A stretch of 64,000 nucleotides of DNA, from positions 1 to 64,000 of the forward strand of contig JAMCWO010000150.1 of the NCBI GenBank assembly GCA_023481165.1, written 5' to 3'. The notes beneath the pieces are model-generated. The model made no database searches and had not been told where the DNA came from. It worked only from the letters and a program-made list of their open reading frames with translations. The DNA is from Planctomycetota bacterium. GTDB taxonomy: Bacteria > Planctomycetota > Phycisphaerae > Sedimentisphaerales > Anaerobacaceae. A program made the translations under genes and the position numbers. Numbering within the stretch: the stretch's first letter is position 1; each line of letters begins with the position of its first letter. Positions 1 to 35,631 of the stretch are shown in pieces.

Positions 1-39
1 CTGGGCACCCTGGTCATGCTGTACCGGCATGTGCCCTAG
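1..39 (+). CDS. 3' end of an upstream CDS (..LGTLVMLYRHVP*), unidentified
   Basis: Open frame from base 1 to TAG at 37-39, directly before the next gene's ribosome binding site. Confidence 0.3.
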   Translation: MGTLVMLYRHVP

Positions 40-50
40 CGTTTCGAGGA

Positions 51-1412
51 GTGGTTGATGTGACTGGTGCGAGAAGATGGTGTGCGATGGGGGCGACGCT
101 GGCCCTGATTTTCACGGGTGCGGCGCGGGCCGTGGACAAGCCGACCACCACGCAAAAGACCTGCGTGACGGCGGAATGCCACGCGACCTACGCCAAGAAG
201 CCCTTTGTCCACGGACCGGTCAGTCTGGGAGACTGCAAGAGCTGTCATGAGGAGGTGGACGCCAAGGCCCACACGTACAAGTTGAGCCGGGAGGGCCGGG
301 ATCTCTGTGAATACTGCCATCTCGATCAAACCACGAAGAAGAACATCCATGAGCCGTTGAAGACCGGCAAGTGCACCGACTGCCACGACCCGCACAGCAG
401 CGACAGCAAAGCGCTGGTTCGCGGCAAGACCATCGCGGACCTCTGCGCGAAATGCCACGAGACCGTCAAGGACGTTCAGTTCCCGCACGGCCCGGTGGCG
501 GTCGGCGAGTGCACCATCTGCCATGCGTCCCACAGCTCGGACCGGCCCAAACTGCTCGTCGACGAGCCGACGAATCTGTGCTTCTCCTGCCACACGGTCA
601 CCAAGAGCGAGCTGTCGCAGTTTGAGTTCGTGCACGAGCCCGTACCTCTTCCCTGCATCGGCTGTCATAACCCGCACGGCGCCGCCAACCCGAAGATGCT
701 GAAGGCCGATGCGCCGGATCTGTGCTACGCGTGCCACAAAGACATTCAGAAGGTGGCCACGACCTCCAAGCACAAGCACGACGCCGTGACGGAGAAGGGC
801 GGCTGCCTGCATTGTCATACGCCGCACGCCTCCACGGTGCAGTTCATCCTGAAAGATGCCCCGATGACTCTGTGCGAAACGTGCCACAACGAGCCGGTGA
901 AGACAGAAGATGGTCAGCCGGTGCCATCGTTCACTGCGCAAATTAAGGACAAGAAGTCTCTGCACGGTCCTGTGGCGCAGAAGAACTGCACCGGCTGCCA
1001 CGCCACCCACGGCAGCGACCATTTCCGCCTGCTGGTAAAGGAATATCCGCAGGCGTTCTATGCCCCGTTCAGCACGGACAAGTATGCCTTGTGCTTCAGT
1101 TGCCACCCGGAGAGTCTGGTGCTGACGGCCCGAACCTCCGAGTTGACGGACTTCCGCAACGGGGACATGAACCTGCACTACGTCCACGTCAACAAGCAGC
1201 GGGGCCGGACCTGCCGCTCGTGCCACGCGACGCACGCGAGCGACCTGCCCAAGCACATCCGGGAGAGTGTTCCTTACGGCGTGTGGAACCTGCCGATCCA
1301 ATTCCAGAAGACGGATACCGGCGGCGGCTGCCGGCCCGGCTGTCATCAACCGTTCACCTACGATCGCAAGACGCCCGTCACGTACCCGGACGTGGCGGTC
1401 GTGCGGCGTTGA
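51..1412 (+). CDS. Multiheme c-type cytochrome (13 CXXCH plus one CX4CH and one CX3CH), secreted
   Basis: 13 CXXCH motifs counted in the 453 aa ORF, plus CVTAECH and CRPGCH; N-terminal hydrophobic signal; GTG start preceded by GAGGAG. Confidence 0.95.
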   Translation: MVDVTGARRWCAMGATLALIFTGAARAVDKPTTTQKTCVTAECHATYAKKPFVHGPVSLGDCKSCHEEVDAKAHTYKLSREGRDLCEYCHLDQTTKKNIHEPLKTGKCTDCHDPHSSDSKALVRGKTIADLCAKCHETVKDVQFPHGPVAVGECTICHASHSSDRPKLLVDEPTNLCFSCHTVTKSELSQFEFVHEPVPLPCIGCHNPHGAANPKMLKADAPDLCYACHKDIQKVATTSKHKHDAVTEKGGCLHCHTPHASTVQFILKDAPMTLCETCHNEPVKTEDGQPVPSFTAQIKDKKSLHGPVAQKNCTGCHATHGSDHFRLLVKEYPQAFYAPFSTDKYALCFSCHPESLVLTARTSELTDFRNGDMNLHYVHVNKQRGRTCRSCHATHASDLPKHIRESVPYGVWNLPIQFQKTDTGGGCRPGCHQPFTYDRKTPVTYPDVAVVRR

Positions 1413-1442
1413 AACGCCTGGCTGGCAGAAAGGGAATCTCCT

Positions 1443-2549
1443 ATGGTGAAACGAAGAGGCGTGCCCGCCGCCCCGCTGCGCGGCGGGGGAGAATGGCTGC
1501 TGGCCCTCGCCAGCGTGATCTGTCTCGTTTCGCCGGGCTGGGGTCAGGAAGGTCTGCGCCGCGTCCATGTCGGCGATACGATGCCCGAGTTCTCCCTGAC
1601 CGACGCCCGGGGAACCGTTTTCCGGTACGAGCATAAGCAGGCCCGTGTCCTCGGCATCCTCATCCTCCAAGCGGGACAGACCCATCTGCAGCGGCTGGTG
1701 ACGGACCTGGAGGTCCTCGTCCAGAAGCTCCGCGTGGAGACGCTCCCGACGCGCAGCCCGGACGCGCAGCGGCCCTCCGGGCCTGGGGCGGGGGCGTTCG
1801 ATTGTATCGGCGTGATGAGCGGCTCGGGGACGAGCGAGTTTCTGCGTTCCCGCGACCCTGACGCCGGCACGGCCTTGCCGATCGTGGCGGATCCAAATTT
1901 CGCGTTCTGGGGCAAGCTGGGAGTTATTGCCGCCCCGACCGCCATCGTCGTAGGGGCCGACCACAAGGTGCGCTGGATCAAGGCCGGCTTCGGGTATGAT
2001 TTCGTGGCCGGTTTCCACTCCCAGTTGAACGAGGCTCTCGGATTGGGCGGCAGCGCAAGTGCAACCGCCCACGTGCAGACGCTCGAGAATACCTCCGTCC
2101 AGTCACGCCGCGACCGGCACATCCAACTGGCGCGGGTGCTGGCGAAGAAGGCACGGTGGGAATCCGCCCTCGGTGAACTGGAGAAAGCACGCGCGCTCGA
2201 TCCGAATGCCGCCGATGTGGCGCTGGAGCTGGGCGAGATTCTGTGCCGGACCGGAAAGAACGAGGCGGCTCTGACAACGGTAGCCCAAGTCAAAGCCGAG
2301 TCGGCCGAGGACAAAGCGCATGTCCTGCTGGTCTCGGCATGGGCCAAACGGCAGATGGGCGATCTTGGCGCCGCCGAATCGCTTCTCACCAGGGCCCTGG
2401 AGATCTCCCCGGAATCCCCGCGGATTCTGTACGAATTGGGCAAGGTCCATCAAGCCAAAGGGGATGCCGCCAAGGCGCTGGCCTGTTATCGCCGGGCACT
2501 AGCCGAGGTCTTCGGGGACACGGAGCCGCCCACCTCTTCTCAAAAGTAG
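1443..2549 (+). CDS. Redoxin/thioredoxin-fold protein with C-terminal TPR repeats
   Basis: VHVGDTMPEFSLTDARG (AhpC/TlpA-like entry strand), PTAIVVGADHKVRWIKAG, followed by TPR helices (ALGELEKARALDPNAADVALELGEI..., YELGKVHQAKGDAAKALACYRRAL). Confidence 0.8.
   Translation: MVKRRGVPAAPLRGGGEWLLALASVICLVSPGWGQEGLRRVHVGDTMPEFSLTDARGTVFRYEHKQARVLGILILQAGQTHLQRLVTDLEVLVQKLRVETLPTRSPDAQRPSGPGAGAFDCIGVMSGSGTSEFLRSRDPDAGTALPIVADPNFAFWGKLGVIAAPTAIVVGADHKVRWIKAGFGYDFVAGFHSQLNEALGLGGSASATAHVQTLENTSVQSRRDRHIQLARVLAKKARWESALGELEKARALDPNAADVALELGEILCRTGKNEAALTTVAQVKAESAEDKAHVLLVSAWAKRQMGDLGAAESLLTRALEISPESPRILYELGKVHQAKGDAAKALACYRRALAEVFGDTEPPTSSQK
1745..1791. repeat. 47-bp in-CDS repeat (PTRSPDAQRPSGP type), copy 1
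   Basis: 45/47 identical to 5124-5170; translated in the same frame in both host genes. Confidence 0.9.
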
Positions 2550-2700
2550 GAGCCAATTTTCGCGACATTCTCACATGTGAGATGCAATGGGCGCAGCATG
2601 TCCTCGCGTCACGGGAGACATGGGAGCGGCCGAAAATGTAAGTCTTTGCTGTAGTGAAACTTACGGAAAGGCCATTTTGATCTTTGAGATCTGCGGTTGT

Positions 2701-2716
2701 TGGCATACGATTTGCG
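2701..2716 (+). promoter_or_regulatory. Candidate sigma54 (-24/-12) promoter
   Basis: TGGCATACGATTTGCG: GG-N10-GC spacing, matching TGGCAY-N5-TTGC; about 140 bp upstream of the tetraheme cytochrome start. Confidence 0.55.
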
Positions 2717-2858
2717 GAAAGCGGTAGGGGGCGCGGTCCGTATGCGCAGTGCTATCGCATGCGGCGCGAACGTGGTGAAACGGATGGTTCACCGGGGTAG
2801 GCAGGGGTAGAAGAATCTGCATCTGGTCGGTGCAGGGGTGTTGGAGGAGTTGAGAAAA

Positions 2859-3482
2859 ATGCACGTCAGCAAGTGGTTGGTAAGGCTCGGTTTTGGTGTC
2901 TTGGTGTCGGGGATGTGGATGGCGACGGGGGCGTGGGCGGCCACGGCCCACTCGGACCTGGTGGGTTGCGATGGCTGTCATGTGCCGCACAACGCGGACC
3001 GGTTGCCGGGCGTGCCGCTGTGGAACGGCAGTGAGACGGCCGTCACATTCACGATGTATTCCAGCAACACGTTCCAAGCTACCATTGATGGCCAGCCCAG
3101 CGGCGCCTCGAAGCTGTGTCTCAGTTGCCATGATGGCGCCAACCCGAACTTCCTGTGGATGTCGGACAACAAGAAGTTCAAGGCGGGCGACTTGGTCAAT
3201 AGTCATCCGATTTCCTTTGTATACGACTCCGCGTTGGCGGCGGCTGACGGGGCCTTGAAGGACCCGTCCCAGCCCAGCACGTTGGGCCGGACCATTGCCC
3301 AGGACCTGTTGGACGCCGAAAGCAAGATGCAATGCAACAGTTGCCACGATGTCCATACCTCCGGTGTGGGCAAGGCGCTGCGCGGCTACAGCTACGGCTA
3401 CGAGACGGTGACCAACGCGGACGGCTCGGAGTCGCAGGTCCATCACGGACCGGAGTTGTGCCGCATGTGCCATCTGAAGTAG
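2859..3482 (+). CDS. Small secreted tetraheme c-type cytochrome
   Basis: Four CXXCH (CDGCH, CLSCH, CNSCH, CRMCH); signal peptide; ATG at 2859 preceded by GGAGGAG (ORF track start 2838 is an upstream TTG). Confidence 0.9.
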   Translation: MHVSKWLVRLGFGVLVSGMWMATGAWAATAHSDLVGCDGCHVPHNADRLPGVPLWNGSETAVTFTMYSSNTFQATIDGQPSGASKLCLSCHDGANPNFLWMSDNKKFKAGDLVNSHPISFVYDSALAAADGALKDPSQPSTLGRTIAQDLLDAESKMQCNSCHDVHTSGVGKALRGYSYGYETVTNADGSESQVHHGPELCRMCHLK

Positions 3483-3511
3483 ACGCGGCCGCATCAATCC
3501 AGATGGGGGGA

Positions 3512-3584
3512 GGGGCCCCCAACGCTGTGCCCGCTTTCGCGGGAATGACGCCCCCGCGGAGGCGGGGGTCGCGTTGGGAACCCC
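3512..3584. repeat. 73-bp composite palindromic element, copy 1
   Basis: ggggcccccaacgc...gcgttgggaacccc outer arms with two inner hairpins; matches the reverse complement of 6640-6712 at 67/73 positions. Confidence 0.9.
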
Positions 3585-3610
3585 AGCACGATGACCGGCC
3601 CGGGACGGCA

Positions 3611-3647
3611 GGGCCTCCAAACGCGATTCATCGCGTTTGGGAAGGGC
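3611..3647. repeat. Short palindromic element (ccaaacgcgattcatcgcgtttgg core)
   Basis: Inverted repeat; same core as 6783-6818 and the inner part of 9296-9369. Confidence 0.8.
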
Positions 3648-3923
3648 TCTCACCGGCGATAAGAGGGCCGGTGGGGACCCGAACCCATGAAGGGCTCGGC
3701 GACGTGGAGGGTATGGACCCTTGTCGTTGCGACCCACAACATCCTGCTCCAGGGAGCGTGCGGTCGTGCCCACCGACGCGCGGCGGCGCTGCGGGGATGC
3801 CCGATAATGCCCGCTACCGTCGGGCTGACGCTCGGCAGCCGCGCGCCGGGGGAAAGGCCTCGCCGCAAGATCTGTCCTAGCCGCAGATTCGGCTAAAGGG
3901 GCCCCGTCGCCTTAGACGAAAAA

Positions 3924-5390
3924 GTGCTTATGTCGGTTGGTAATCCTTTTCTTTGCAGGAGTTTAGCTCTCATCGCGGGATGCGCGGTCCTGGGTCTCGT
4001 GGGCGGGTGCGGCACGGCCCAGAAACAGCCCAGCGCGGCCGCGCCGGTCTACTTTCCGTCCGCGCCGGAGAAGCCCCGCCTGCAATTCCTGACCTCGCTC
4101 TCCGGTCCCGCCGATCTGGGCGCGCCCGGTCCCAGCGGCTTTGAGAAATTCGTACTCGGCGAGGCGGAGCGGAAAGAGGGCATTGCCACCCCGTATGGTC
4201 TGGCCCTTCACGACGGCGTGCTGTACGTCTGTGACGTTGGCAAGAGGCGAATCGAGATGCTCGACTTGAGGAAGCGGTCGTTCGGCTACTTGACGGAAGA
4301 CCGGCGGCTGGCCAACCCCGTAAACATTTTCATCGAGCCGAACGGGACGAAATATGTGGCCGACCCGACCGCCGGGACGGTCTTCGTCTTCGATTCCGCC
4401 AATGCGTTGCAGGAGATTCTCGGCAAGGACCTGCGGATCAACCCCATTGATGTCGCGGTCCGGGGCGATCACTGCTACGTGACGGACTTCGCGAGCAATC
4501 AGATTATCGTGATGGACAAGACGACCGGCAGAGAGATTCGCCGCCTGGGCGAGGCCGGCGACGGCGACAAGCAGTTCAAGCTCATCAGCGATCTGACCTT
4601 CGGCCCGGACGGGGACCTCTACGCGACGGACAAACTCAAAGCCAAGATCTTCCAGTTCGACGCCGCGGGGAATTTCCAGCGGACCATCGGCCAGCGGGGC
4701 GACAACATCGACGAATTGGTGCGGCCCAAGGGCATCGCCGTCGACCGCGAGAACCGGATCTGGGTGATCTGCGCCGGCGTGTCCATCGGGGCCGCGGTGT
4801 GGTCCACGGAGGTGGCCAAGATCTACGACCAGAAGGGGCGGCTTTTACTGTTCTTCGGCCGGCCGGGCAACGAGCCGGGGAATATGAACATGCCTGCCAA
4901 GGTAATTCTGGACTACGATCACGTGGATTTGTTTCGGCCCTATGCCGTCAAGGGGGCCAAGATCGAGTTCCTCGTGTTCGTGTCGAACCAATACGGCCCG
5001 CACAAAGTCAACGTCTACGGGTTCGGCGAATTTCCGGTCGCCGGCAGACCCAGGGAGGCGGCGGGAACGCCCCTCACGGAGAACACCGCCGCGCCAAAAC
5101 CCGCCCCTGGCGCCGAGCCGCCCCCGACGCGCAGTCCGGACGCGCAGCGGCCCTCCGGGCCTGAGGCGGCGATGAACGATGCCGAACGGCTGCAGCGCAG
5201 CCGGGAGATCGGCGGCGTCTACAAGCAGAGCATGGAGGCGTATCGTGCCGGTCGTCTCGAAGAAGCACGCGCCGGCTTTGTGAAGGTCGTGGAAAGCGGG
5301 TTGATTCCACCTCCGATGGAGGACATGCTCCGAGGCTACATCCGGGATATCGACGCCCGGCTGACCCACAGTCCGGGTGGACCACGTTGA
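3924..5390 (+). CDS. NHL-repeat (beta-propeller) lipoprotein with C-terminal TPR-like helix pair
   Basis: Lipobox LVGGC; repeated blades such as YGLALHDGVLYVCDVGKRRIEMLD and VRPKGIAVDRENRIWV; C-terminal YRAGRLEEARAGF. Confidence 0.85.
   Translation: MLMSVGNPFLCRSLALIAGCAVLGLVGGCGTAQKQPSAAAPVYFPSAPEKPRLQFLTSLSGPADLGAPGPSGFEKFVLGEAERKEGIATPYGLALHDGVLYVCDVGKRRIEMLDLRKRSFGYLTEDRRLANPVNIFIEPNGTKYVADPTAGTVFVFDSANALQEILGKDLRINPIDVAVRGDHCYVTDFASNQIIVMDKTTGREIRRLGEAGDGDKQFKLISDLTFGPDGDLYATDKLKAKIFQFDAAGNFQRTIGQRGDNIDELVRPKGIAVDRENRIWVICAGVSIGAAVWSTEVAKIYDQKGRLLLFFGRPGNEPGNMNMPAKVILDYDHVDLFRPYAVKGAKIEFLVFVSNQYGPHKVNVYGFGEFPVAGRPREAAGTPLTENTAAPKPAPGAEPPPTRSPDAQRPSGPEAAMNDAERLQRSREIGGVYKQSMEAYRAGRLEEARAGFVKVVESGLIPPPMEDMLRGYIRDIDARLTHSPGGPR
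5124..5170. repeat. 47-bp in-CDS repeat (PTRSPDAQRPSGP type), copy 2
   Basis: 45/47 identical to 1745-1791. Confidence 0.9.
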
Positions 5391-6622
5391 TGGGGACTAT
5401 GCCCGAGCCCGCGCGTTACGGTGCGGGGTCCCGAACGCATAATTCTGCGTTGGGGGGCCCCTTGGCATCGCTTCGGATGCTGTCGGTCCCGGCAGGATCA
5501 GGGTTGATGGCGATGTTCCTGTTGCTGGCCAGTTGCGACGAGGTGGAACGCCACAAGACATTGACGTTCTTTTTCGATGGGGTTCCGCCCCTGCGGACGG
5601 AGGCGCCCGAGGCCCAGGCAGCAGGACTGATAGACAACCGGGCCGCCGACAAGGCTCCGGTGGGCCTGTGGCGCACCCATGCGCCGGTTAAGAATTGCAC
5701 CGTCTGCCATGGGGAGCAGCGCCGCGCCGGCGCCGCGCGGAAAGTGCAGTTGGTCGCCGAGGTACCACAGTTGTGCTACAATTGTCATAAAGAGTTTTCC
5801 GCGCTGCAAGCGTGGGTGCACGGACCGGTGGCCACCGGCAACTGCCTGCTCTGCCACGAGCCGCACAAGGCCAAGAATGAGTCTTTGCTCCGCAAGCCCG
5901 TGCCCGATCTGTGTTACCAGTGCCACGAGGAGCAGGCGATTCGCCAGATCAAGAACCACGCGGAAGCATCCTACGCGCGGTGCATCGATTGCCATGAGGG
6001 CCATGCCAGTGCCGCCCGGGGCCTGCTGCGGCAGACGTTCCTCGATCAGCCGGCGGGCCGGGAGTATCGGTCCGAGGCCTACCGCCGCAGCTACGAGGAG
6101 GCATTGCGGCGGGCGCGGAGCGATTTGACACAGGGCCAGGATTTCCTGGCGCTGTCCGGCACGGCGCTGGACTACCTGGAAAGAGGGCAGTGGTGGCCGG
6201 CCCGCGCTTATCTCGAAATCCTGCTCGGCAGCGACCTTCCTGCCGAGACGGAAAAGCTCGCCCTGACGGAGATCCTGCGGCAGGTTGAGGCCCTGCAAGC
6301 GGGAGAGCCGAATCAATCCCCGCCTGACGTCCCAACACAGACGGCGACGGATAGCGCCGTAGCGGCTGAAGGTCCGGCCGGCGCTCTCCGCGCGGTTCGG
6401 GAGCGCCGCAGCGAGCAGGCCAAAGACATCGCAGAACTCTACTATCGCAGCATCAAGTTGTATCACGCCGGACAAGTAGCAGAGGCCCGGGAAGGCTTCC
6501 GCCAAGTCCTGGCCGATCATTTTATCCCGGGGCCGATGAAGGAAACGGCCCGAACCTACCTCGAACAAATTGAGGGCAATCTGGCACCGCCAGGACAGCC
6601 CGACGAGGGTGCCATGAAATAG
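5390..6622 (+). CDS. Pentaheme c-type cytochrome lipoprotein with C-terminal TPR-like domain
   Basis: Five CXXCH (CTVCH, CYNCH, CLLCH, CYQCH, CIDCH); lipobox LLLASC; TGATG overlap with the upstream gene; internal ATG at 5507 is an alternative start directly before the signal sequence. Confidence 0.85.
   Translation: MGTMPEPARYGAGSRTHNSALGGPLASLRMLSVPAGSGLMAMFLLLASCDEVERHKTLTFFFDGVPPLRTEAPEAQAAGLIDNRAADKAPVGLWRTHAPVKNCTVCHGEQRRAGAARKVQLVAEVPQLCYNCHKEFSALQAWVHGPVATGNCLLCHEPHKAKNESLLRKPVPDLCYQCHEEQAIRQIKNHAEASYARCIDCHEGHASAARGLLRQTFLDQPAGREYRSEAYRRSYEEALRRARSDLTQGQDFLALSGTALDYLERGQWWPARAYLEILLGSDLPAETEKLALTEILRQVEALQAGEPNQSPPDVPTQTATDSAVAAEGPAGALRAVRERRSEQAKDIAELYYRSIKLYHAGQVAEAREGFRQVLADHFIPGPMKETARTYLEQIEGNLAPPGQPDEGAMK
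5425..5461. repeat. 37-bp palindromic element (THNSALG type), copy 1
   Basis: ggggtcccgaacgcataattctgcgttggggggcccc; 31/37 identical to 18758-18794. Confidence 0.85.
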
Positions 6623-6639
6623 TGCGTCAAGGTCGAGAA

Positions 6640-6712
6640 GGGGCCCCCAACGCGACCCCCGCCTCCGCGGGGGCGTCATTCCCGCGAAAGCGGGAACTGC
6701 GTCGGGGACCCC
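6640..6712. repeat. 73-bp composite palindromic element, copy 2 (opposite orientation to 3512-3584)
   Basis: 67/73 identical to the reverse complement of 3512-3584; inner attcccgcgaaagcgggaac resembles the dRS3-like ATTCCC-N8-GGGAAT form. Confidence 0.9.
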
Positions 6713-6751
6713 AATCAGGGAGGGTGCGATCGGGACGCGGAAATTGACAAC

Positions 6752-8824
6752 TTGTTGAATCGATCACGCAACACAGCAAGGAGGGCTCCCAAACGCGATG
6801 TATCGCGTTTGGGGACCCAGCGCAGCCCGGCATGGCTATGGCCCGCCCAGAGGGTCCTTGAAAGCGTGTTGTGTGGGGGCTTGAGTCTGATAATATTGGC
6901 CGGCTGCGGGGTAACGGTGCGGGATCAAAAACGGCCTTTGATCCGACATGACAAAATTCGCGGTGAAATTGAAGGCGTGGTCGAGCACCGCACCGATAAA
7001 CAGGAATCAGGTCCCGAAAAACGGGAGAGCAAAAGCAACGTGTTCGAGGAACGACTGAGGCTGGCGACCACGGGCGATGTGTATCATCCGGATTTTCTGA
7101 ACTATGACCTAATGGTGGGAGCCGGATTGGCGCAGCAGAACATCGAGTCGGACGACCTGTCGGGCTGGAGCACCGGGACGCTCAGCGAGTACCAGGTGTC
7201 CGCCCAGATCCTGCGCACCAAGCCCTACTCCGGCACGGTCAACGCCAGCAAGACGCAGGACCTGATCCCCCGGCAGTTTCTGTCGCCCCTGTGGGCCGAC
7301 AACCAAAGTGAATCCGCGACCGTTATTCTGAAGCCTGAAGCCTGGCCGATGATGTTCCAATACAGCGACAGCAAGATCGACCAGGAGGGTTTTCAGCACT
7401 TCGCGCCGGACTTTTTCTCCCGCGACGAACAGCAGTTCCGCTACTCCGTCGATCACGATTTCAGCAAGTTCTCACACATGCATTTCGACTTCGATCACAC
7501 CGACGCGACCCAGGAGACCGTGGGGGCCGTGCTGGACACGGATACGAACGCGTACAATTTCTCGCATGACTTTCTGTTCGGCCCGGACGAGCAGCACCGC
7601 CTCGACTCTCTCTTCAGCTACATCGACCAGGGGGGCTCCTTCGACTATCAGGATCTCCGGCTGCAGGAGCGCCTGAAGCTGCAGCACACTCCCAATTTCT
7701 TCAGCCGGTACGATCTGCAATACGACGACCTGGAGCGAGACACGCTGAGCAACCAGCAGCTCCGCGGCCAGGCAGGTATCGAGCACCACCTGTTCGAGAG
7801 TCTCGTGACGAACGCCGACGCCTTCGTCTCTCAGACGGAGCTGGGATCGGATGAGAATCTCTTCCAGTACGGCGGGATCTTCGGGCTCAACTACCGCAAG
7901 ACCAACCCCTGGGGCCTCTTGCTCAGCAACTACGACGCCAGTTACACCCGCAGCGATCAGACGGGAGGCGCCGGCAAAGGCGTGGTCGTCGGGGAAGCGC
8001 ACACGGCCACCGATGTGGTCCCGGTCGAGTTGAACCGCACGAACATCGACCTCTCGACCCTCCGGGTCAGAACGGCCAGCGGTCTGCTGTACCAGCCCGG
8101 CGACGACTACCTCATCTCCCAGCAGAACGGCCGGGTGTTCCTCACGACGTTCGTCGTCGGCGGCGCGATTCCCCCGAATTTCACCCGGGGGCAGGACTTC
8201 CTCGTCGATTACGAGTTCTTCGTGGACCCCGAGCGGCAGGAGGACACCTTCCGCCAGAACTTCACCATCCGCGAACGCTTCAAAAACGGAATCTCGGTGT
8301 ACTACGGATTGCGGCAGCAGCAGCAGGATATCACTTCGAACGTGGCCGAGGTGATTGCCGACGAATACCTGGCCCACACGGTCGGCATTGACTACACCAA
8401 CAACGGCCTGTTCCTGGTGGCGGAGTACTATATCGAAGACTCGACCCTGATCCCCACGATCAGCAAGAAACTGGAGGGCCGCTATCGCTGGATGATCGGA
8501 CCGGCGACCACGGCCAGCCTCGGGGTCGGCAATCAATGGCTGGATTTCAGCGAGCCGGATGCCCGGCAGGTGCAACTGTTCGAGACGACCGGCGAGATCT
8601 TCAGCCGGCTGACCGACAACTATAGCATCTCCAGCACCGTGAACTATCGCCATGAGCAAGACACGCGTTTCGGGACCACCAGAGGATTTCAGATCGACAA
8701 CAAGCTGGAGTACCAATACCGGCAGGTTACGGCCACGATCGGCGCGGAGTTGAATTTCCTGGAACGCCGCGACGATCGGATCGACGGCATCTTTCTGTAC
8801 ATCAGGGCCCTGCGGCGTTTCTGA
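6752..8824 (+). CDS. Outer-membrane beta-barrel protein (candidate porin of a porin-cytochrome conduit), possibly with a lipobox; true start may be downstream
   Basis: Alternating amphipathic strands throughout, C-terminal Phe (LYIRALRRF*), LSLIILAGCG signal; sits between multiheme cytochromes and NHL lipoproteins. Confidence 0.7.
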   Translation: MLNRSRNTARRAPKRDVSRLGTQRSPAWLWPAQRVLESVLCGGLSLIILAGCGVTVRDQKRPLIRHDKIRGEIEGVVEHRTDKQESGPEKRESKSNVFEERLRLATTGDVYHPDFLNYDLMVGAGLAQQNIESDDLSGWSTGTLSEYQVSAQILRTKPYSGTVNASKTQDLIPRQFLSPLWADNQSESATVILKPEAWPMMFQYSDSKIDQEGFQHFAPDFFSRDEQQFRYSVDHDFSKFSHMHFDFDHTDATQETVGAVLDTDTNAYNFSHDFLFGPDEQHRLDSLFSYIDQGGSFDYQDLRLQERLKLQHTPNFFSRYDLQYDDLERDTLSNQQLRGQAGIEHHLFESLVTNADAFVSQTELGSDENLFQYGGIFGLNYRKTNPWGLLLSNYDASYTRSDQTGGAGKGVVVGEAHTATDVVPVELNRTNIDLSTLRVRTASGLLYQPGDDYLISQQNGRVFLTTFVVGGAIPPNFTRGQDFLVDYEFFVDPERQEDTFRQNFTIRERFKNGISVYYGLRQQQQDITSNVAEVIADEYLAHTVGIDYTNNGLFLVAEYYIEDSTLIPTISKKLEGRYRWMIGPATTASLGVGNQWLDFSEPDARQVQLFETTGEIFSRLTDNYSISSTVNYRHEQDTRFGTTRGFQIDNKLEYQYRQVTATIGAELNFLERRDDRIDGIFLYIRALRRF
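6783..6818. repeat. Short palindromic element (PKRDVSRLG type)
   Basis: gggctcccaaacgcgatgtatcgcgtttggggaccc inverted repeat at the 5' end of the beta-barrel ORF. Confidence 0.8.
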
Positions 8825-8845
8825 CCGATAGGAAATTTGATGGGT

Positions 8846-8933
8846 GATTTTTGATGGTTGACTGAAATCATCAAAAAATCAAAAATCATAATAAGTATGA
8901 TCTGCCAATTTAAAAAATCAACCATCAAAAATC
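8846..8933. repeat. AT-rich inverted repeat with perfect 16-bp arms
   Basis: gatttttgatggttga (8846-8861) and tcaaccatcaaaaatc (8918-8933). Confidence 0.9.
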
Positions 8934-10036
8934 GCACTTCGACGGTCCTGTTCGTGCTGGCCCTGGCCGGCGCCGGCTGCGGCCCGCAGGAGTCCGAGCT
9001 CTTGAAATCGCCTGCGACACCCCTGGTGTGGCCCGAGCCGCCCGAGCAGCCCCGGATCACGTACTTGGGCGCCGTGTCCACCGAATCCGATATGGAGAAG
9101 CCCGGCTCGCTCTTCGATGGGCTGGGGGCGCTGCTGTTCGGCACCAAGCCGGTGGGCATTCTGGTTTCGCCCTACGCGGTGGCGGTCGATCCGACGGGGA
9201 TCATGTACGTGGCGGATACGGGCGGGGCGGTGGTTCATGCGTTCGATCTGCGCACCCGCGACTACAGACAGTTCTGTGATTTGAACAAAGAGCCCGGGCC
9301 CCCAACGCGCACTTGGGTTCCCAAACGCGACGCATCGCGTTTGGGGGACCCTTCTGCGTTGGGGACCCCGGGCAAGCTGCGCAGGCCGGTCGCGCTGGTG
9401 ACGTCCAGCGAGCGGGTTTACGTCGTGGACAGCGGCCTGCGCCAGGTCTGCGTCTTCAAGAGAAACGGCGAGTTTCTGTTCGCCTTCGGGCAGGATCGGC
9501 TGGCGCGGCCGGCCGGCATCGCGTGCCGCCATTCCCAAGGCACGATCTATGTGGCCGACGCGGGCCGCCACACCATCTGCGTGTTCGACCACGAGGGCAA
9601 GCCTCTCAAGGAGATAGGCATGCGCGGCACGGGCCCCGGCCAGTTCAATTTCCCCACCCATCTGTGGGTCGACGACGCGGGGCAGCTCTACGTGAGCGAC
9701 ACGCTTAACTTCCGGATCCAGGTGTTCGATCCCGGCGACCGGTTCGTACGGATGTTCGGGCAGCAGGGTGACCGGCCGGGCAATTTCGCCCATCCCTGCG
9801 GCATCGCCACCGATCCGTCCGGGAACATCTACGTGACCGACCGGCAATTCGAGAACGTGCAGATCTTCGATGCCCAGGGGCGTATCCTGATGGCCCTCGG
9901 GCAGGAAGGCAGCGGCCCCGGCGAATTCTGGCTGCCGGCCGGCCTTTTCATCGACGGGCACGGCAGACTCTACGTGGCCGATTCCTTCAATAAGCGAATC
10001 CAGATCTTCGAGCTTCTGAAGGAGACCGCGCCATGA
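8897..10036 (+). CDS. NHL-repeat lipoprotein (ORF track start 8858)
   Basis: Lipobox LAGAGC; NHL blades (LYVSDTLNFRIQVFD, IYVTDRQFENVQIFD, LYVADSFNKRIQIFE). Confidence 0.85.
   Translation: MICQFKKSTIKNRTSTVLFVLALAGAGCGPQESELLKSPATPLVWPEPPEQPRITYLGAVSTESDMEKPGSLFDGLGALLFGTKPVGILVSPYAVAVDPTGIMYVADTGGAVVHAFDLRTRDYRQFCDLNKEPGPPTRTWVPKRDASRLGDPSALGTPGKLRRPVALVTSSERVYVVDSGLRQVCVFKRNGEFLFAFGQDRLARPAGIACRHSQGTIYVADAGRHTICVFDHEGKPLKEIGMRGTGPGQFNFPTHLWVDDAGQLYVSDTLNFRIQVFDPGDRFVRMFGQQGDRPGNFAHPCGIATDPSGNIYVTDRQFENVQIFDAQGRILMALGQEGSGPGEFWLPAGLFIDGHGRLYVADSFNKRIQIFELLKETAP
9296..9369. repeat. 74-bp nested palindromic element inside the NHL CDS
   Basis: Outer gggcccccaacgc/gcgttggggacccc arms enclosing caaacgcgacgcatcgcgtttg; translated GPPTRTWVPKRDASRLGDPSALGTPG. 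Confidence 0.85.
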
Positions 10037-11685
10037 GGGCAGGGTCCACCACTGCGGCCTTGATTTGTCTGGCGGCCCTGGCGGGATCGAGCAGAGGGGC
10101 CGGCACAGGATCCATTCAGGGCACGCCTCACGATCTGTCCCCGGTCGCGGGCGGCGGATCGTGCAGTTTCTGCCATACGCCGCACGGCGCCCTGCCCGGG
10201 ACACCCCTGTGGAGCCACAAACTCTCCACCGCCGTCTACAAAATCTACGAGAGCTCTTCGCTCAAGGCGAAGGTCGGCCAGCCGACGGGCTCCAGCAAAC
10301 TCTGTCTGAGTTGCCACGACGGCACAGTGGCCTTGACCGAAACGATCACCGGCGCGGCCGGTGGGGCGTATATTTCTGCCGGTGGCTCCAACCTGGGGAC
10401 GGACCTGTCGGATGACCACCCGATCAGCTTTGTCTACTCCTCCGGCCTATCGGCCGAAGATCCGCAAATCCGGCCGCCCCTCGGCTTGTCGCCGTTATTG
10501 AAGCTGGATCGTTCCGGCGAGCTGCAATGCACAACTTGCCACGATGCCCACGACAACCGCCACGGCAAGTTTCTCGTGATGCCCAACGACAGGTCGCAGA
10601 TGTGCGTGAGCTGCCACAACATGAAGAGCTGGACCACGTCCGTGCATGAGAGCTCCGCGGTCCTGGTCGCCGCGTCCAGCGATCCTTACCTGCAGAGCGG
10701 CAACCGCGGCACGCTGGCGGAGGTCGGCTGTCTGGCCTGTCATCGGCCGCACGGCGCCGGCGGCCGCCAGCGACTCCTCCACTTCGCCCAACTGGAAGAG
10801 AATTGCCTGGACTGTCACAATGGACTCGTGGCGAACACGGATATCCGCGCCGACATGCTCAAGCTCAGCCGGCACAATGTCCTGCGCTACCGGGGGATTC
10901 ATGACCCCCGGGAGGTCCCCTCGGCGGCGCCCCTGCACGTCGAATGTGTGGATTGTCACAATCCTCACGCCACGCAGCGTGCTCCTGCGCAGGCGCCGGC
11001 GGTCCCCGGTGCCATGCAGGGCGCTTCGGGCGTTACCATCACCGGTGCGCCAACGGCCAATGTCCAATTCGGCTATGAGGTCTGCTTCAAGTGCCATGCC
11101 GACAACCCGGAGCGTCCCCAATCGCGCATCACCCGGCAGATTACCCGATGCCGCCGCCGATGCGAATTCGAGCCTTCCGGGCCCTCGTTCCACCCGGTCG
11201 CGGCGCCCGGGGTGAATCCGAACGTCCCGAGCCTGGTTCCGCCGATGACCGTGGCGACGCTCATTTATTGCACCGATTGCCACGGCTCCGACGGCGGCTC
11301 CGGGGCCAAAGGCCCGCACGGGTCCATCTATCCATACCTGCTGGCCGGTCGGTACGAGACCGCCGATTTCACGCCGGAAAGCAGCTCCTCCTACGAACTC
11401 TGCTATCGCTGCCACAGTAGAAATAGCATTCTGGGCGATCAGAGTTTTGCCGGCCACAGCCAACACCTGCAAAACGGAATCCCCTGCTCGGCGTGCCATG
11501 ATCCGCACGGCATCACCGCGTCCCAGGGATCGAGACTGAACAACAGTCACCTGATCAATTTCGACGTGGCTATCGTTCGGCCCGATCCCGTCACGGGCCG
11601 GCAGGCCTTTGAAGACCTGGGGGTCTTTCACGGACGCTGCTATCTGTCCTGTCATGGCCGCAGCCATTCTCCGAAGGAGTACTGA
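10033..11685 (+). CDS. Multiheme c-type cytochrome (11 CXXCH plus C-terminal CX3CH), secreted
   Basis: 11 CXXCH motifs plus CYLSCH; N-terminal module resembles the 2859 tetraheme protein; ATGA-type overlap with the upstream gene. Confidence 0.95.
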   Translation: MRAGSTTAALICLAALAGSSRGAGTGSIQGTPHDLSPVAGGGSCSFCHTPHGALPGTPLWSHKLSTAVYKIYESSSLKAKVGQPTGSSKLCLSCHDGTVALTETITGAAGGAYISAGGSNLGTDLSDDHPISFVYSSGLSAEDPQIRPPLGLSPLLKLDRSGELQCTTCHDAHDNRHGKFLVMPNDRSQMCVSCHNMKSWTTSVHESSAVLVAASSDPYLQSGNRGTLAEVGCLACHRPHGAGGRQRLLHFAQLEENCLDCHNGLVANTDIRADMLKLSRHNVLRYRGIHDPREVPSAAPLHVECVDCHNPHATQRAPAQAPAVPGAMQGASGVTITGAPTANVQFGYEVCFKCHADNPERPQSRITRQITRCRRRCEFEPSGPSFHPVAAPGVNPNVPSLVPPMTVATLIYCTDCHGSDGGSGAKGPHGSIYPYLLAGRYETADFTPESSSSYELCYRCHSRNSILGDQSFAGHSQHLQNGIPCSACHDPHGITASQGSRLNNSHLINFDVAIVRPDPVTGRQAFEDLGVFHGRCYLSCHGRSHSPKEY

Positions 11686-11688
11686 GAA

Positions 11689-12087
11689 GTGAACACAAAA
11701 ACCGTAGTCAAGCTCGGCATCGGCATCCTCGTCATCGGCGGCGGCATCGGGTACTTCATGTACCAGGCCATGCAGTCATCTTGGGCCTACTACTATTCCG
11801 TTGATGACTTCGCTACCGCCGGAACGGCGTCGCAAGGGCAGTCGTTCCGTTTGGCCGGCCGGGTCAAGGCCGGCAGCGTCGAGCGCGACCTGCAGAACAT
11901 GACACTGCGGTTCACACTGGCGGGGGCCCAGACCCAGTTGCCGGTGCTCTACAAAGGCGTGACGCCGGACAACTTCACGGAAGACAAAGAGGTGGTCGTG
12001 GAAGGGCGGTTGGCGGCCACCGGCGTGTTCCAAGCCGACACCCTCATGACTCGGTGCGAATCGAAATACCAGGCGAAAGTGAAATAG
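11689..12087 (+). CDS. ccmE: Cytochrome c-type biogenesis heme chaperone CcmE, CXXXY variant
   Basis: N-terminal TM anchor, OB-fold-like sequence (LPVLYKGVTPDNFTEDKEVVVEGRL), CESKY at the canonical His position; upstream of ccmF. Confidence 0.85.
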   Translation: MNTKTVVKLGIGILVIGGGIGYFMYQAMQSSWAYYYSVDDFATAGTASQGQSFRLAGRVKAGSVERDLQNMTLRFTLAGAQTQLPVLYKGVTPDNFTEDKEVVVEGRLAATGVFQADTLMTRCESKYQAKVK

Positions 12088-12089
12088 AC

Positions 12090-14021
12090 ATGCCGGAATT
12101 TGGACAATTCGCACTGCGGCTGGGACTATTACTGAGCGCGTACGCGATTCTGGTCGATCTCGTCGGCCGGCGATGGAACCGCCGCGAGCTGCTCGCCAGC
12201 GGACGCAATGCCACGATCGGCTGTCTGCTCTGCCTGACGGCGGCTTGCATCGCCCTGGAAATCCTGCTGGCGCGCAGCGATTTCTCCGTCCGGTACGTGG
12301 CCGAGAACACTGCGCGGGCACTGCCCTTCGTCTACAAACTTACGGCGCTGTGGGCGGGGGCAGCGGGGTCATTGCTGCTGTGGCTATGGCTTCAGACCGG
12401 CTTTGTCGTCCTGGCTTTCGCGAAGTTCGACCGGGATTCTGAGCGTTTTTGCGCTACAGCGCGGGCCGCGGCGAACCTCGTAGCGGTGTTCTTCTTCCTG
12501 GTCCTGATCTTCGACAAAGACCCGTTCGGGTTGTCGGTCACGATGCCCCGCGACGGCGCAGGTCTCAATCCGCTGCTTCAGCATCCGGCGATGGTCCTGC
12601 ATCCGCCGGCCTTATTTCTGGGCTACGCCGCGTTCGCCATCCCGTACGCTTGGGTATTCGCGGCGTTGCGGCGGGACGATACCAGCCAGCCGCCCATCCT
12701 CTTGTCCCTCGCCCGAAACAGTGCCTTGTTCGCCTGGATGTTTCTGACGGTCGGTATTGCCCTGGGAGCCTGGTGGGCCTATGAGGAGTTGGGCTGGGGC
12801 GGCTACTGGGCTTGGGACCCGGTGGAGAACGCGTCCCTGATCCCGTGGCTGACCGCGACGGCTCTCCTGCATTGCGCCCGTACCTTCCGGGCCGGCACGA
12901 AGACGGGGCTGTGGTTCATGGTTCTGGCCCTGGTTACTTTCAGCCTCTGCATCTTCGGGACATTCCTGACGCGATATGGCCTGGTCTCCAGCGTCCACGC
13001 CTTCCCCGAGCCGGGTCTGGGCATCCTGTTTCTCGTCCTGCTAATCGTGATTTGGGCGGTAGGCGGCCCCCTGATCGTGCGCGGGCACCTGCGGTCCAGT
13101 GCGACGGCCCAAACTCAGGGCCCCGGCATTCGTTTCGTGGTCTGGAACAACTGGCTGATGGTTCTGCTGGCCTTCGTGGTCCTGGTCGGAACGTTGTTCC
13201 CCTTCTTGAGCGGTTTGGTCAGCAGCCAAAAGATCACCCTCAAGAGTGATTATTTCACGAAGATCACGGCCCCCGGCGGTTTGGTTCTTCTGCTTTTGCT
13301 GGGCGTCTGTCCCCACCTGATGCGGCATGGCTTGAGCAAGAGCTGGCGTATCGTGGGGGCCGCAGTCACAGCGGTCGCTGCGGTACTGATCTGGATGCTG
13401 GCTCATGATTTGGCGATTGCGTATCTCGTGGCATGCGCGTTCGTCGGGATGAACCTGGTTGCGGATTTCATTCAGCGGTACACACGCCGCGGCGTACCCG
13501 GGGAGGCCACCCCGGTCGGTGCGAACTTGCGCTGGCATGGGGCCAGAGTCGTGCACATTGGTGTGCTGCTGGCTTTCGTGGGAATCGCGGGCTCCGGCGG
13601 GTTCGATCTCCAGAAACAGGTGGCCCTCAGGCCGGGTGAGCGGACGCAGGTCGGTGATTTCGAACTCGCGTATGACGGTCTGGATGCCCAGCACGGCGCG
13701 AACTTCACCGCGGTGAAAGCCAATGTATCGGTCTATCGGGGGCAAACCCGCATCGCCCAACTTGCGCCCGCTGTGGCCTTCTATAGTCGGTCGGAAAAAC
13801 GCACCAGCGAAGTGGATATTCGACGCACCTTGGCCGGCGATCTGTATCTGGCCTTGACCGAAGTGGACAGCGGCAGCAAACTGATCAACCTGACGATCTA
13901 CATCAAGCCCCTGATCAACTGGATCTGGATCGGCAGCGGCTTGATGGTGCTCGGAACGGCGCTCGTACTGGCGGCGGGTCTCGGACGCACACGGGGCGCC
14001 CCACAGGGGAATGGACAATGA
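12090..14021 (+). CDS. ccmF: Heme lyase CcmF (ORF track start 12054; ATG 12090 preferred)
   Basis: Polytopic; WWD motif region GWGGYWAWDPVENASLIPWL; NPLLQHPAMVLHPPALFLGY. Confidence 0.95.
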   Translation: MPEFGQFALRLGLLLSAYAILVDLVGRRWNRRELLASGRNATIGCLLCLTAACIALEILLARSDFSVRYVAENTARALPFVYKLTALWAGAAGSLLLWLWLQTGFVVLAFAKFDRDSERFCATARAAANLVAVFFFLVLIFDKDPFGLSVTMPRDGAGLNPLLQHPAMVLHPPALFLGYAAFAIPYAWVFAALRRDDTSQPPILLSLARNSALFAWMFLTVGIALGAWWAYEELGWGGYWAWDPVENASLIPWLTATALLHCARTFRAGTKTGLWFMVLALVTFSLCIFGTFLTRYGLVSSVHAFPEPGLGILFLVLLIVIWAVGGPLIVRGHLRSSATAQTQGPGIRFVVWNNWLMVLLAFVVLVGTLFPFLSGLVSSQKITLKSDYFTKITAPGGLVLLLLLGVCPHLMRHGLSKSWRIVGAAVTAVAAVLIWMLAHDLAIAYLVACAFVGMNLVADFIQRYTRRGVPGEATPVGANLRWHGARVVHIGVLLAFVGIAGSGGFDLQKQVALRPGERTQVGDFELAYDGLDAQHGANFTAVKANVSVYRGQTRIAQLAPAVAFYSRSEKRTSEVDIRRTLAGDLYLALTEVDSGSKLINLTIYIKPLINWIWIGSGLMVLGTALVLAAGLGRTRGAPQGNGQ

Positions 14022-14125
14022 TGGTTCTGAAGTGGGTCTTGTTGCTCGTATGTGTGGCCTTGGCGCTCTGGCCGCTGCTGGCCAGACACGAAAGCTCCAG
14101 CGGCAAAGAGGGGAAAGCGCCATGA
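14018..14125 (+). CDS. 35-aa single-TM protein MMVLKWVLLLVCVALALWPLLARHESSSGKEGKAP (not in ORF track)
   Basis: ATG overlaps the ccmF stop and its TGA overlaps the next ATG (ATGA); hydrophobic N-terminal helix. Confidence 0.6.
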   Translation: MMVLKWVLLLVCVALALWPLLARHESSSGKEGKAP

Positions 14126-15129
14126 GGTATTCGATTGCAACAGTTCTGATCGTTCTATTCCCGGTTTGGATGCCGACCGCCGCCTTCGCCCAAGCCCGGC
14201 TTACGGTCGAGGTCAAGAACCATACGGCCAACGGTGCCACGGTTGCGGGCGACGAAGTTGTGCTCGAGGTTTACCGAGGGCAGGAGCAGATCGAGTCTTT
14301 GCAGGCAAAGGTCGGTGCGGATGGCAAGGCGGTTTTTGAAAACATCCTGACCGGACCGAACATGGCCGCGGTGGCCACGGCCAAACACCAGAACATGGCC
14401 TTCCGCAGCGAGCCTGTCGCGCTGAACCCGGCCACAGGCGAATTCTCCGCCGGCGTGCAGGTGTTCGATGTCTCGACGGATACCGCGCAGCTATCCGTGG
14501 GCGTGCATCACATCCTGGTCGCGGTGCGCGGCGCAGCGCTCGAATTCACCGAGTACATGCAACTGAAGAATGTCTCCGACAGGGCGATCACCGGCGCCAA
14601 ACGCGATGACCAGAACCGGCCCTCTGTAATCGAGGTCAGGCTGCCGCAGGGCTTTCAGGATCTGTCGGCCTCCGGCTATCTCGAACCGGAGGCGCTCGTG
14701 GTCACCGCGGATGGGTTTTATGACACGATGGCCGTGCCGCCCGGCGAGCACCAGGTCACGTTCTCCTACAAGGTGGGAATCAACCGCCGCACCGTCAAGA
14801 TCGTCAAAGAGATTACCCTGCCCACGGCGGAGCTGATGCTCTTTTGGACGCACGGGCAGGGCAAGCTGGAGGGGCTGGGGGAGCCCAACGACCGGCTCGC
14901 CAATGCCGATGGGGCGCCGATGGAGTATTATCGGCGCAGCAATCTTAAGCCCGGAGATCGGCTTGCTTTTCAGTTCTCCGGCTTCAAGGCAAAATCCGGC
15001 GACTACAGTTGGATTGTGCTGGGCGTGGTGTTTGCCGCCCTGGTGGTAATTGCGCTTTGGCGGCTGCGTCGAAGCCCGCAGCGCCGCTGCGCGTCGGGGG
15101 CAGTCGAATCCGGACGAGAACGTGCGTAA
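14122..15129 (+). CDS. Uncharacterised ccm-operon protein: signal peptide, carboxypeptidase-regulatory-like domain, C-terminal TM
   Basis: ATG at 14122 (codon 38 of the track ORF); ARLTVEVKNHTANGATVAGDEVVLEVYRG; C-terminal SWIVLGVVFAALVVIALWRLRR. Confidence 0.7.
   Translation: MRYSIATVLIVLFPVWMPTAAFAQARLTVEVKNHTANGATVAGDEVVLEVYRGQEQIESLQAKVGADGKAVFENILTGPNMAAVATAKHQNMAFRSEPVALNPATGEFSAGVQVFDVSTDTAQLSVGVHHILVAVRGAALEFTEYMQLKNVSDRAITGAKRDDQNRPSVIEVRLPQGFQDLSASGYLEPEALVVTADGFYDTMAVPPGEHQVTFSYKVGINRRTVKIVKEITLPTAELMLFWTHGQGKLEGLGEPNDRLANADGAPMEYYRRSNLKPGDRLAFQFSGFKAKSGDYSWIVLGVVFAALVVIALWRLRRSPQRRCASGAVESGRERA
15074..15101. repeat. Short palindromic element in the C-terminal coding region
   Basis: gcccgcagcgccgctgcgcgtcgggggc; reverse complement shares gcccccgacgcgcag with the 5124 element. 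Confidence 0.5.
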
Positions 15130-15133
15130 GGCA

Positions 15134-15865
15134 ATGGCCCAAGATGAGCCGACGAGTGCGGCGTTGAGCGTCCGCGCCGTCAGCAAGACGTTCGTGACGA
15201 AGCCCGTGCTGCGGGGCATTGACCTGGTCGTGCCCGCCGGCGAGGCGGTCTGCCTGTGCGGGATCAACGGCGCGGGCAAGAGCACGCTGCTGCGAGTGAT
15301 CGCGGGCTTGCTGCGTCCCGACAGCGGTTCGATCGCGATCCAGGGATATGAGGTCCGCCGGGAGCCGGAGAAGAGCCGGCGGCAACTCGGCATGATCTCC
15401 CACGCGGGCATGGCCTACCCGGAACTGACTGTCAGCGAGAACCTCGCTTTCGCCGCGCGTCTGTACGGCGTGCCCCGTCGCGCGGAACGCATCGAAGAAC
15501 TGCTGGCTGGCACTGGGTTGACCTCGTACCGGTATGACCGGGCGGAAATTCTTTCCCGCGGGCTACAGCAACGTCTGGCGATTGCCCGGGCCCTCTTGCA
15601 TCGGCCCGCCGTACTGCTGGCGGATGAGCCGTTCACCGGCTTGGACGCCGCCGCCACGCAAGACGTGTGCACGATCTTCGACCGGTTCGCCCGGGACGGA
15701 GGCACGATCCTGATGACGACCCACGATCTGCGCCTGGGGCTGCAATGCTGCCGGCGCGTGGCCGTTCTGGACCAAGGCGTTCTGATTCTGGACGCGAGCA
15801 AGGATAGGATCGACACTCGGCGTTTTCTCGATGATTATCTCTCCTATGCGAGGACCATGAGTTGA
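15134..15865 (+). CDS. ccmA: Heme exporter ATP-binding protein CcmA
   Basis: Walker A GINGAGKSTLL, signature LSRGLQQRLAIARALL, Walker B AVLLADEP; operon position. Confidence 0.9.
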   Translation: MAQDEPTSAALSVRAVSKTFVTKPVLRGIDLVVPAGEAVCLCGINGAGKSTLLRVIAGLLRPDSGSIAIQGYEVRREPEKSRRQLGMISHAGMAYPELTVSENLAFAARLYGVPRRAERIEELLAGTGLTSYRYDRAEILSRGLQQRLAIARALLHRPAVLLADEPFTGLDAAATQDVCTIFDRFARDGGTILMTTHDLRLGLQCCRRVAVLDQGVLILDASKDRIDTRRFLDDYLSYARTMS

Positions 15866-16578: not shown

Positions 16579-16582
16579 CAGA

Positions 16583-17218: not shown

Positions 17219-17230
17219 GGAGTCTGGGAT

Positions 17231-17365: not shown

Positions 17366-17393
17366 AGGCCTGTGGCGCCTAGGAGAACGACGG

Positions 17394-18923
17394 ATGCCGC
17401 CGCTGGATGTCAGCCTATTGTGCTATGATTTGCCCTCCCGACCGCGGCCGGAGATGGGCCGGATCCTGGTGACCGGCGCCACCGGCTACATCGGCGGGCG
17501 ACTCGTGCCGGAGTTGTTGGCCCGGGGGTATCGTGTACGAGTCATGGTGCGCGCGCCCGCGGAGGAGTACTGCAACCGCTGGCCCGGCGCGGAGATCGTG
17601 GTCGCCGATGCGCTGAAGGCGGACGGTCTGCGCGAGGCATTACAGGGGATTCACGCCGCCTATTACTTGATTCATTCGCTGCTGCTCGGGCAGGAGGAAT
17701 TCGAGTCCAAGGAGATCCAGGCCGCGGGGAACTTTCGCACGGCCGCCGAGAAGGAGGGGGTCGCCCATATCATCTACCTGGGGGCGCTGGGCGACATTCG
17801 CGTGCCGTTATCGCCGCACCTGAGGAGCCGGATGCACGTGGCGGAGGAGTTGGGGCGTGGACGCGTCGCGACCACCGTCCTGCGTGCGGCGATCATCATC
17901 GGCTCCGGCAGTGCCTCCTACGAGATCATCGAGCACCTGGTGCGGAATTTGCCCGTGTTCTTCGTGCCACGCTGGGCCCAGACCCGGTGCCAGCCGATCG
18001 CCGTTCGCGACGTCATCAAGTACCTGGTCGGCGTGCTGGAAACCCCCGAGGCTTGCGGGAGGTCTTTCGATATCGGCGGCCGGGATGTGCTGACGTACCG
18101 GCAAATGCTCGGCATCTTCGCGGACCTGCTCGGCAAAAAGAGGCTCTTCCTTCCGTGTCCATTCTGCCACATCGGGCTGTTCTCCTACCTCGCCAGCCTC
18201 GTCACGCCCGTGCCGGCAGCGATCACGCGGTGTCTCATGGAGGGAATCACCAGCGAGGTCGTTTGCCAGAGCCAGGACATCCGGCACCTACTGCCTTTCC
18301 AGCCCTTGGGGTACCGGGAAGCCCTCGTCCGGGCGCTGTCGCGCGAGGAGCAGGACCGCGTGCACACCCGCTGGTCCGACGCCTATCCGCCCGCGCACGA
18401 GCTGGCGATGAAGCTCCACGAGATCCCCAAGCCCGTGCGCTACACGAGTTCATACACGCTCCCGACGGAAAAGGACGCCCCTTCGCTCTTCCGTTCGGTC
18501 TGCCGGATTGGGGGCAAGGAAGGGTGGTTCTACAGCAATTGGCTGTGGCGGCTGCGCGGCATGATCGATCGGATCCTGCTGGGCGTCGGGTCATCCCGGG
18601 GCAGGAGGAGTTCCTCGAGCCTGAGAGCCGGGGACGTGATTGACTTCTGGCGCGTCGAAGACCTCAGGCCGGACGCCATGCTTCTCCTGCGGGCGGAGAT
18701 GAAGCTGCCAGGCATGGCGTGGCTTCAGTTCAACGTGGATCGGAAAGAGGGCGGTCAGGGGCCCCCAACGCATAATTCCGCGTTGGGGACCGCCAATCAG
18801 TTGTCTGTGAACGCCTATTATCAACCGTCCGGCTTGTTGGGAAAACTGTACTGGTACGCCTGTCTTCCCTTTCACTCCCTGATCTTCCACAATCTGATCA
18901 AGCAGATCGAGAAGAGGGCGTAA
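17394..18923 (+). CDS. NAD(P)-binding SDR-family protein with C-terminal DUF2867-like domain (alternative start 17454)
   Basis: GRILVTGATGYIGGRLVPELLARGYRVRVMVR Rossmann motif; C-terminal VIDFWRVEDLRPDAMLLLRAEMKLPGMAWLQF. Confidence 0.85.
   Translation: MPPLDVSLLCYDLPSRPRPEMGRILVTGATGYIGGRLVPELLARGYRVRVMVRAPAEEYCNRWPGAEIVVADALKADGLREALQGIHAAYYLIHSLLLGQEEFESKEIQAAGNFRTAAEKEGVAHIIYLGALGDIRVPLSPHLRSRMHVAEELGRGRVATTVLRAAIIIGSGSASYEIIEHLVRNLPVFFVPRWAQTRCQPIAVRDVIKYLVGVLETPEACGRSFDIGGRDVLTYRQMLGIFADLLGKKRLFLPCPFCHIGLFSYLASLVTPVPAAITRCLMEGITSEVVCQSQDIRHLLPFQPLGYREALVRALSREEQDRVHTRWSDAYPPAHELAMKLHEIPKPVRYTSSYTLPTEKDAPSLFRSVCRIGGKEGWFYSNWLWRLRGMIDRILLGVGSSRGRRSSSSLRAGDVIDFWRVEDLRPDAMLLLRAEMKLPGMAWLQFNVDRKEGGQGPPTHNSALGTANQLSVNAYYQPSGLLGKLYWYACLPFHSLIFHNLIKQIEKRA
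18758..18794. repeat. 37-bp palindromic element (THNSALG type), copy 2, inside the SDR CDS
   Basis: ggggcccccaacgcataattccgcgttggggaccgcc; in frame as GPPTHNSALGTA. Confidence 0.85.
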
Positions 18924-35600: not shown

Positions 35601-35631
35601 AGCGCAGCACACGGATTGATCCGAATCCGTA

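Follow-up and report, generated by a model that had tools for sequence, protein, structure and literature searches.

Why do two closely similar 73-bp elements follow the tetraheme and pentaheme cytochrome genes of a Planctomycetota bacterium in opposite orientation: do they serve these genes, or are they mobile DNA? The window analysed here, a 64,000-nt stretch of contig JAMCWO010000150.1 (assembly GCA_023481165.1), had been the subject of an earlier note, which saw in the pair either mRNA 3'-end hairpins setting cytochrome stoichiometry or the borders of an invertible segment. The pair itself is as described there: the copies (Table 1) are equally long and, in inverted orientation, identical at 67 of 73 positions, with copy 1 lying 29 nt past the tetraheme ORF (which ends at 3482) and copy 2 lying 17 nt past the pentaheme ORF (which ends at 6622); the translations contain four and five CXXCH motifs, respectively. 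A BLAST search against the whole genome returns the second copy with E = 1e-23 and, slightly extended, the pair forms the longest inverted repeat in the window (80 nt, 89%).

Architecture and copy number of the 73-bp elements

Each element has outer arms of the form GGGG-nn-CCCAACGC...GCGTTGGG-nn-CCCC around two inner units, CCCGCTTTCGCGGG and CCCCCGCGGAGGCGGGGG. Both inner hairpins of the earlier description are present, albeit not as separately folding units in both copies: the best fold of copy 1 is one long rod (z = -6.0), that of copy 2 two hairpins (z = -4.0), because the inner hairpins are nearly complementary to each other. An Rfam search gave no match above the gathering score, only a chance match (E = 0.59).

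Table 1. Palindromic elements in the window
Feature	Position	Strand	Remark
73-bp composite, copy 1: 36-bp-palindrome arms with head-to-head CGTC-1 REP pair in the loop	3512..3584	+	
73-bp composite, copy 2	6640..6712	-	
Inner REP pair, copy 1 (CCCGCTTTCGCGGG + CCCCCGCGGAGGCGGGGG)	3530..3568	+	class per PMC3733652
Inner REP pair, copy 2	6656..6694	-	
36-bp palindrome, AAACGC type	6783..6818	+	perfect consensus
36-bp palindrome, AACGC type	5425..5460	+	immediately ahead of the probable start of the pentaheme gene
Compound: ACCGGC-type element inserted in the right end of an AAACGC-type 36-mer	3611..3686	+	
Palindrome in ORF 17394-18920	18759..18792	+	34-nt core; 36 nt = 18758-18793 with flanking bases
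Nested pair in NHL ORF 8858-10033: AACGC-type palindrome with an AAACGC-type one in its loop	9296..9368	+	inner palindrome 9315-9351

A DNA search of the genome revealed three more near-complete 73-bp copies and several partial ones, and a covariance model found six full composites in its 6.05 Mb: besides the pair in the window, contigs C282, C41, C218 and C93 carry one apiece. The model was trained on these same six copies; therefore, what it adds is that there are no further composites of that quality in the assembly, which is fragmented and 87% complete. The same model found no full composite in eight genomes of the same genus. The 73-bp elements are thus dispersed, with six full copies, rather than a private pair, and the condition under which the earlier note would have counted as refuted, no copies genome-wide other than these two, does not apply. 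At one locus (L013, about 10216-10323), an AGCCGC-type palindrome interrupts the right end of a composite, such that three repeats are nested.

A REP pair within the loop of a palindrome

The resemblance of the core to dRS3, suspected beforehand, was borne out: by head, stem and loop, the inner units belong to the CGTC-1 class of REPs, which includes both Neisseria dRS3 and Rickettsia RPE-6 and is defined by a stem of 8-9 bp, a loop of 4-5 nt and a terminal CGTC (or variant) head (Di Nocera et al. 2013, PMC3733652). One unit reads CGTCATTCCCGC-GAAA-GCGGGAA (copy 2, + strand from 6674) and the other CGCCCCCGC-GGAG-GCGGGGG. Elsewhere in the genome, CGTC-1 units are found singly or paired, either tail to tail or, in other palindromes (C230, C242 and C71), head to head; the single units carry a CCA tail (GGATTCCC.../...GGGTCCAGG), which is replaced by the palindrome arm inside the composites.

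The proposed nesting also holds, as an imperfect palindrome of 36 bp (hereafter the 36-mer) supplies the outer arms and carries the REP pair in its loop: in all six composites, two head-to-head CGTC-1 REP hairpins, making a loop of ~44-45 nt, replace the 8-nt loop of the 36-mer. All six share a truncated head-to-head junction, whereas REP pairs elsewhere have TGACGTCA/TGACATCA junctions; the presence of the shortened junction in all composites and its absence from other REP pairs suggests that one composite was copied. The alternative, that the composites arose separately through a REP pair, moved by a RAYT, inserting into different 36-mer loops, is a variant rather than a competitor of this scheme, and it draws on the differences in arms between composites (AACGC, AAACGC, GCAACGC and AGACG), on the REP pairs in the other palindromes and on the presence of RAYT-like genes. 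Nevertheless, the common junction and loop length, together with the lack of any RAYT here flanked by composites, make it rather unlikely, if still worth serious consideration.

The 36-bp palindrome is a mobile element

The 36-mer has a constant plan. A variable 8-nt loop separates two complementary 9-bp arms, and on either side two free bases join the arm to the terminal triplet, GGG on the left and CCC on the right. The arm is usually CCCAAACGC or CCCCAACGC, and the rarer arm types (ACCGGC, AGCCGC, AATCGC and AGACGC) leave the plan unchanged. A single pattern covering both common arm types gave 194 copies at up to two mismatches, and the AAACGC pattern gave 198 at up to three, with no match to the reversed-pattern control in either case; the two arm-type patterns give overlapping counts (85 and 198) because one element can match both, and the total is about 200. 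Congeners also carry it (AACGC pattern: 71 copies in G002, 67 in G008 and 43 in G007), and there were none in the 391 other genomes of the phylum (392 sampled, the congeners not among them). Among 60 copies, the arms covary, with 33 doubly changed cells against 8.7 after shuffling and 99% of cells forming standard pairs. The 36-mer also has the terminal inverted repeats typical of a MITE, here of 12 pairs. One might ask whether such elements are chance GC-rich palindromes or artefacts of assembly, given a GC content of 62% and a fragmented, metagenome-like assembly; there is practically no likelihood of this, as the reversed patterns matched 0-1 times against 47, 29, 85 and 198 for the true ones, and the family recurs in independent congeneric assemblies.

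Evidence for transposition comes from the flanks. Across 61 copies with distinct flanks, the left and right flanking positions match in 59, 49 and 61% of cases, compared with 24-25% expected (z = 9.4), and the match is confined to these three positions, with none beyond. Moreover, filled and empty sites coexist in the same genome: GGGAA-{36-mer}-GAACCC is matched by GGGAACCC, and GTCAAA-{36}-ATACAAG by GTCAAACAAG. Perfect duplications include GAA/GAA at a filled/empty site and AAG/AAG in a putative glycogen phosphorylase gene. The 36-mer is, then, a mobile element, with a 3-bp target duplication, covarying arms, filled and empty sites and precise in-frame insertions of 39 nt; it has spread to ~200 sites in the genome, each insertion comprising 36 bp plus the 3-bp duplication. 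No such duplication is recognisable around the 73-bp composites, so that the case for their transposition is built on copy number and on the inner sequence they have in common.

Palindromes of this type have also inserted into one another. In the compound at 3611..3686, GAA flanks are found at 3641-3643 and 3681-3683, and the same compound recurs repeatedly elsewhere. Two more hairpin repeat families, GCACGGTCAAAC-AA-GTTTGGCCGTGC and CATGGGCTnnnAGCCCATG, repeatedly act as hosts for 36-mers (L107 808, L047 9247, L052 18140 and L056 17289; L047 7507 and L054 9584). The idea that hairpin loops in general are targeted was rejected, as 60 copies whose flanks are distinct show no excess of flank complementarity (z = -0.1); an early positive result across all copies was dropped because duplicated compounds had been counted.

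Insertions inside genes

In 0.9 Mb of sampled contigs, which were picked for containing repeats and for which our own gene calls covered 80% of the sequence, 40 of 121 36-mers lie inside genes. As 36 bp and a 3-bp duplication amount to 39 bp, the reading frame survives, and a frame-preserving insertion fits with the toleration of many genic copies. The encoded peptides include GxPNAExRVGxP, GxPTxNSALGxP and VPKRDASRLGxP. A gene on contig C63, which from its translation we take to encode glycogen phosphorylase, contains two 36-mers, neither of which is present in five congeneric orthologues; the length differs by exactly 39 nt in each case, and one insertion has AAG on both sides. Within the window, the palindrome in ORF 17394-18920 encodes GQGPPTHNSALGT, an insert of 13 residues that is absent from all 10 homologues. 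The nested pair in the NHL ORF, whose loop reads GCAC-TT-[37]-TT-CT, contributes ~26 extra residues, absent from the homologues L082, L083 and L084. The last of these (on contig C12 of G008) has its own in-frame insert elsewhere in the gene, ~30 residues long and including the hairpin GTCGTGC-GGGGAC-GCACGAC; a similar hairpin is found in the present genome (L070).

What emerges is a very small mobile DNA, each insertion of which adds 13 residues to a gene that looks intact, and congeners have the precise empty sites. This makes two questions testable: which enzyme moves such short hairpins, and how often the inserts are tolerated or used.

The elements and the cytochrome genes

A contig of the congener G008 (C12; L100) is colinear with positions 131-14621 of the window, with the same gene order and orientation and without the 73-bp elements. 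Its tetraheme-NHL spacer is 113 nt, compared with 473 nt in the window, and contains neither a composite nor a 36-mer; likewise, the spacer corresponding to the region of 5425..5460 is shorter and lacks the 36-bp palindrome. Around copy 2, the divergence of the 3' part of the pentaheme gene prevents an exact empty site from being discerned. For one gene, the closest relatives with a name share at most 64% identity and bear mixed labels, with two Omnitrophota records among the best.

Were the elements kept as mRNA 3'-end hairpins, stabilizing or terminating the cytochrome messages and thereby setting protein ratios, the short distances from copies 1 and 2 to the preceding stops, in a run of genes on the same strand, would be readily explained, as would their very stable folds; GC-rich stems could, furthermore, block 3' exonucleases. 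Yet the other four composites are away from gene 3' ends, lying 72-746 nt past the closest gene boundary upstream, and one precedes a start by 53 nt. No U-tract follows either copy (the sequences are AGCACG and AATCAG), nor is there a position bias of the kind expected for Rho-independent terminators: in the sampled contigs, 14 36-mers lie in divergent spacers and two in convergent ones. Since the congener also maintains the same gene order without them, we regard this explanation as improbable, and a cytochrome-specific role in stoichiometry finds no support, four of the six composites being elsewhere than at 3' ends. The other suggestion, that the inverted pair lets the 3.1-kb segment (3.05 kb; 3585-6639) flip, switching the orientation of the NHL and pentaheme genes, has in its favour that inverted repeats of 92% identity bracket the segment. 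It finds no support and is considerably less probable still: the repeats, at 73 bp, are short for general recombination, the congener has the same order and orientation without them, all neighbouring genes point in one direction, the translated neighbouring ORFs of 1-20000 include no evident recombinase gene, and elements of the same kind occur elsewhere as single copies.

All of this indicates that the hairpins at the cytochrome genes of the window are dispersed repeats rather than evolved regulators. The 73-bp elements may have a secondary effect on mRNA, and an influence on the ends of the cytochrome messages would be a side effect. The elements are probably composite mobile palindromes of a non-autonomous kind, with 36-mer arms around a REP pair. 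A REP pair would have landed in the loop of a 36-bp-type palindrome, and the composite would then have multiplied, with one or more local copying events producing the pair in the cytochrome cluster. The elements may be moved by a transposase acting in trans with 3-nt staggered cuts, which might recognise either the GGGnnCCC-arm hairpin or both arms as terminal repeats.

Search for the mobilising enzyme

None of the five Y1_Tnp and three DDE_Tnp_1 genes in the genome has 36-mer arms as its ends. Nor is any of the five Y1_Tnp genes flanked by 36-mers or composites, or by a shared repeat in the manner of a RAYT gene; a lone CGTC-like hairpin lies about 700 nt from just one of them. An autonomous parent with 36-mer ends was found neither around the eight transposase genes nor, as a convincing pair of lone arms, in 1.06 Mb of sampled sequence. 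A RAYT-like gene on contig C195 (L098) sits between inverted repeats of TCCGGGGACACC/GGAATTCC type, which are unrelated to the 36-mer.

Relation to known elements

Elhai et al. (2008; cited in PMC4390886) are said to have described very short, dispersed 'very small mobile repeats' (SDR) from cyanobacteria, which insert into other repeats. Their sequence is not known to be related to that of the 36-mer, the features of which are a palindrome with variable loop, a 3-bp duplication and in-frame coding copies. Palindromic inserts in frame are already known from Rickettsia, where the palindromic elements (RPE), of about 150 bp, lie in frame in unrelated protein genes (PMC10969869). The 36-mer is likewise a palindromic mobile repeat found in frame in unrelated protein genes; it differs, by description, in being only 36 bp long (12 codons, or 13 with the duplication) and restricted to the genus, and in being common both within and between genes. 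With bacterial MITEs it shares its shortness, its non-coding nature, its inverted terminal arms and the target duplication, but it consists of little besides a 14-bp end on each side of 8 bp. Among the papers covered by our literature search there was no described 36-bp element of this kind, and the 36-bp element with 3-bp duplication is a new form within the known kind of the Rickettsia palindromes and MITEs.

The composite, by comparison, is a new example of an arrangement already known, since REP pairs inside larger palindromes have been described: the CGTC-1 dimers of Halothiobacillus all lie within 41-bp palindromes and the GTAG-15 dimers of Anabaena within long ones (PMC3733652). The inner units here agree with CGTC-1 REPs in their 8-bp-type stem, 4-nt loop, CGTC-like head and head-to-head pairing; what sets them apart from those dimers is an enclosing palindrome that is found on its own as well, at ~200 sites with an 8-nt loop, and whose 3-bp target duplication can be measured. 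Tentatively, and with rather more doubt than confidence, the 36-mer might be seen as a class of mobile hairpin in its own right: one of the shortest stretches of DNA to transpose with a regular target duplication, inserting 39 bp without loss of frame, served by an undescribed enzyme, and with a loop able to carry other repeats.

Other repeats in the window

A further GC-rich repeat, of CCCGACGCGCAGCGGC type and with inverted matches, occurs at 1757-1782, 3770-3795, 5136-5160 and 15074-15100; two of its copies, in ORFs 1443-2549 and 3924-5390, encode a common peptide, TRSPDAQRPSGP, within a 71-nt repeat. Additionally, the 34-nt repeat GCGCTTGTCATCCTGAGCGnAGCGAAGGATCTGG forms an inverted pair at 35572-35605 and 54843-54876, which is 97% complementary.
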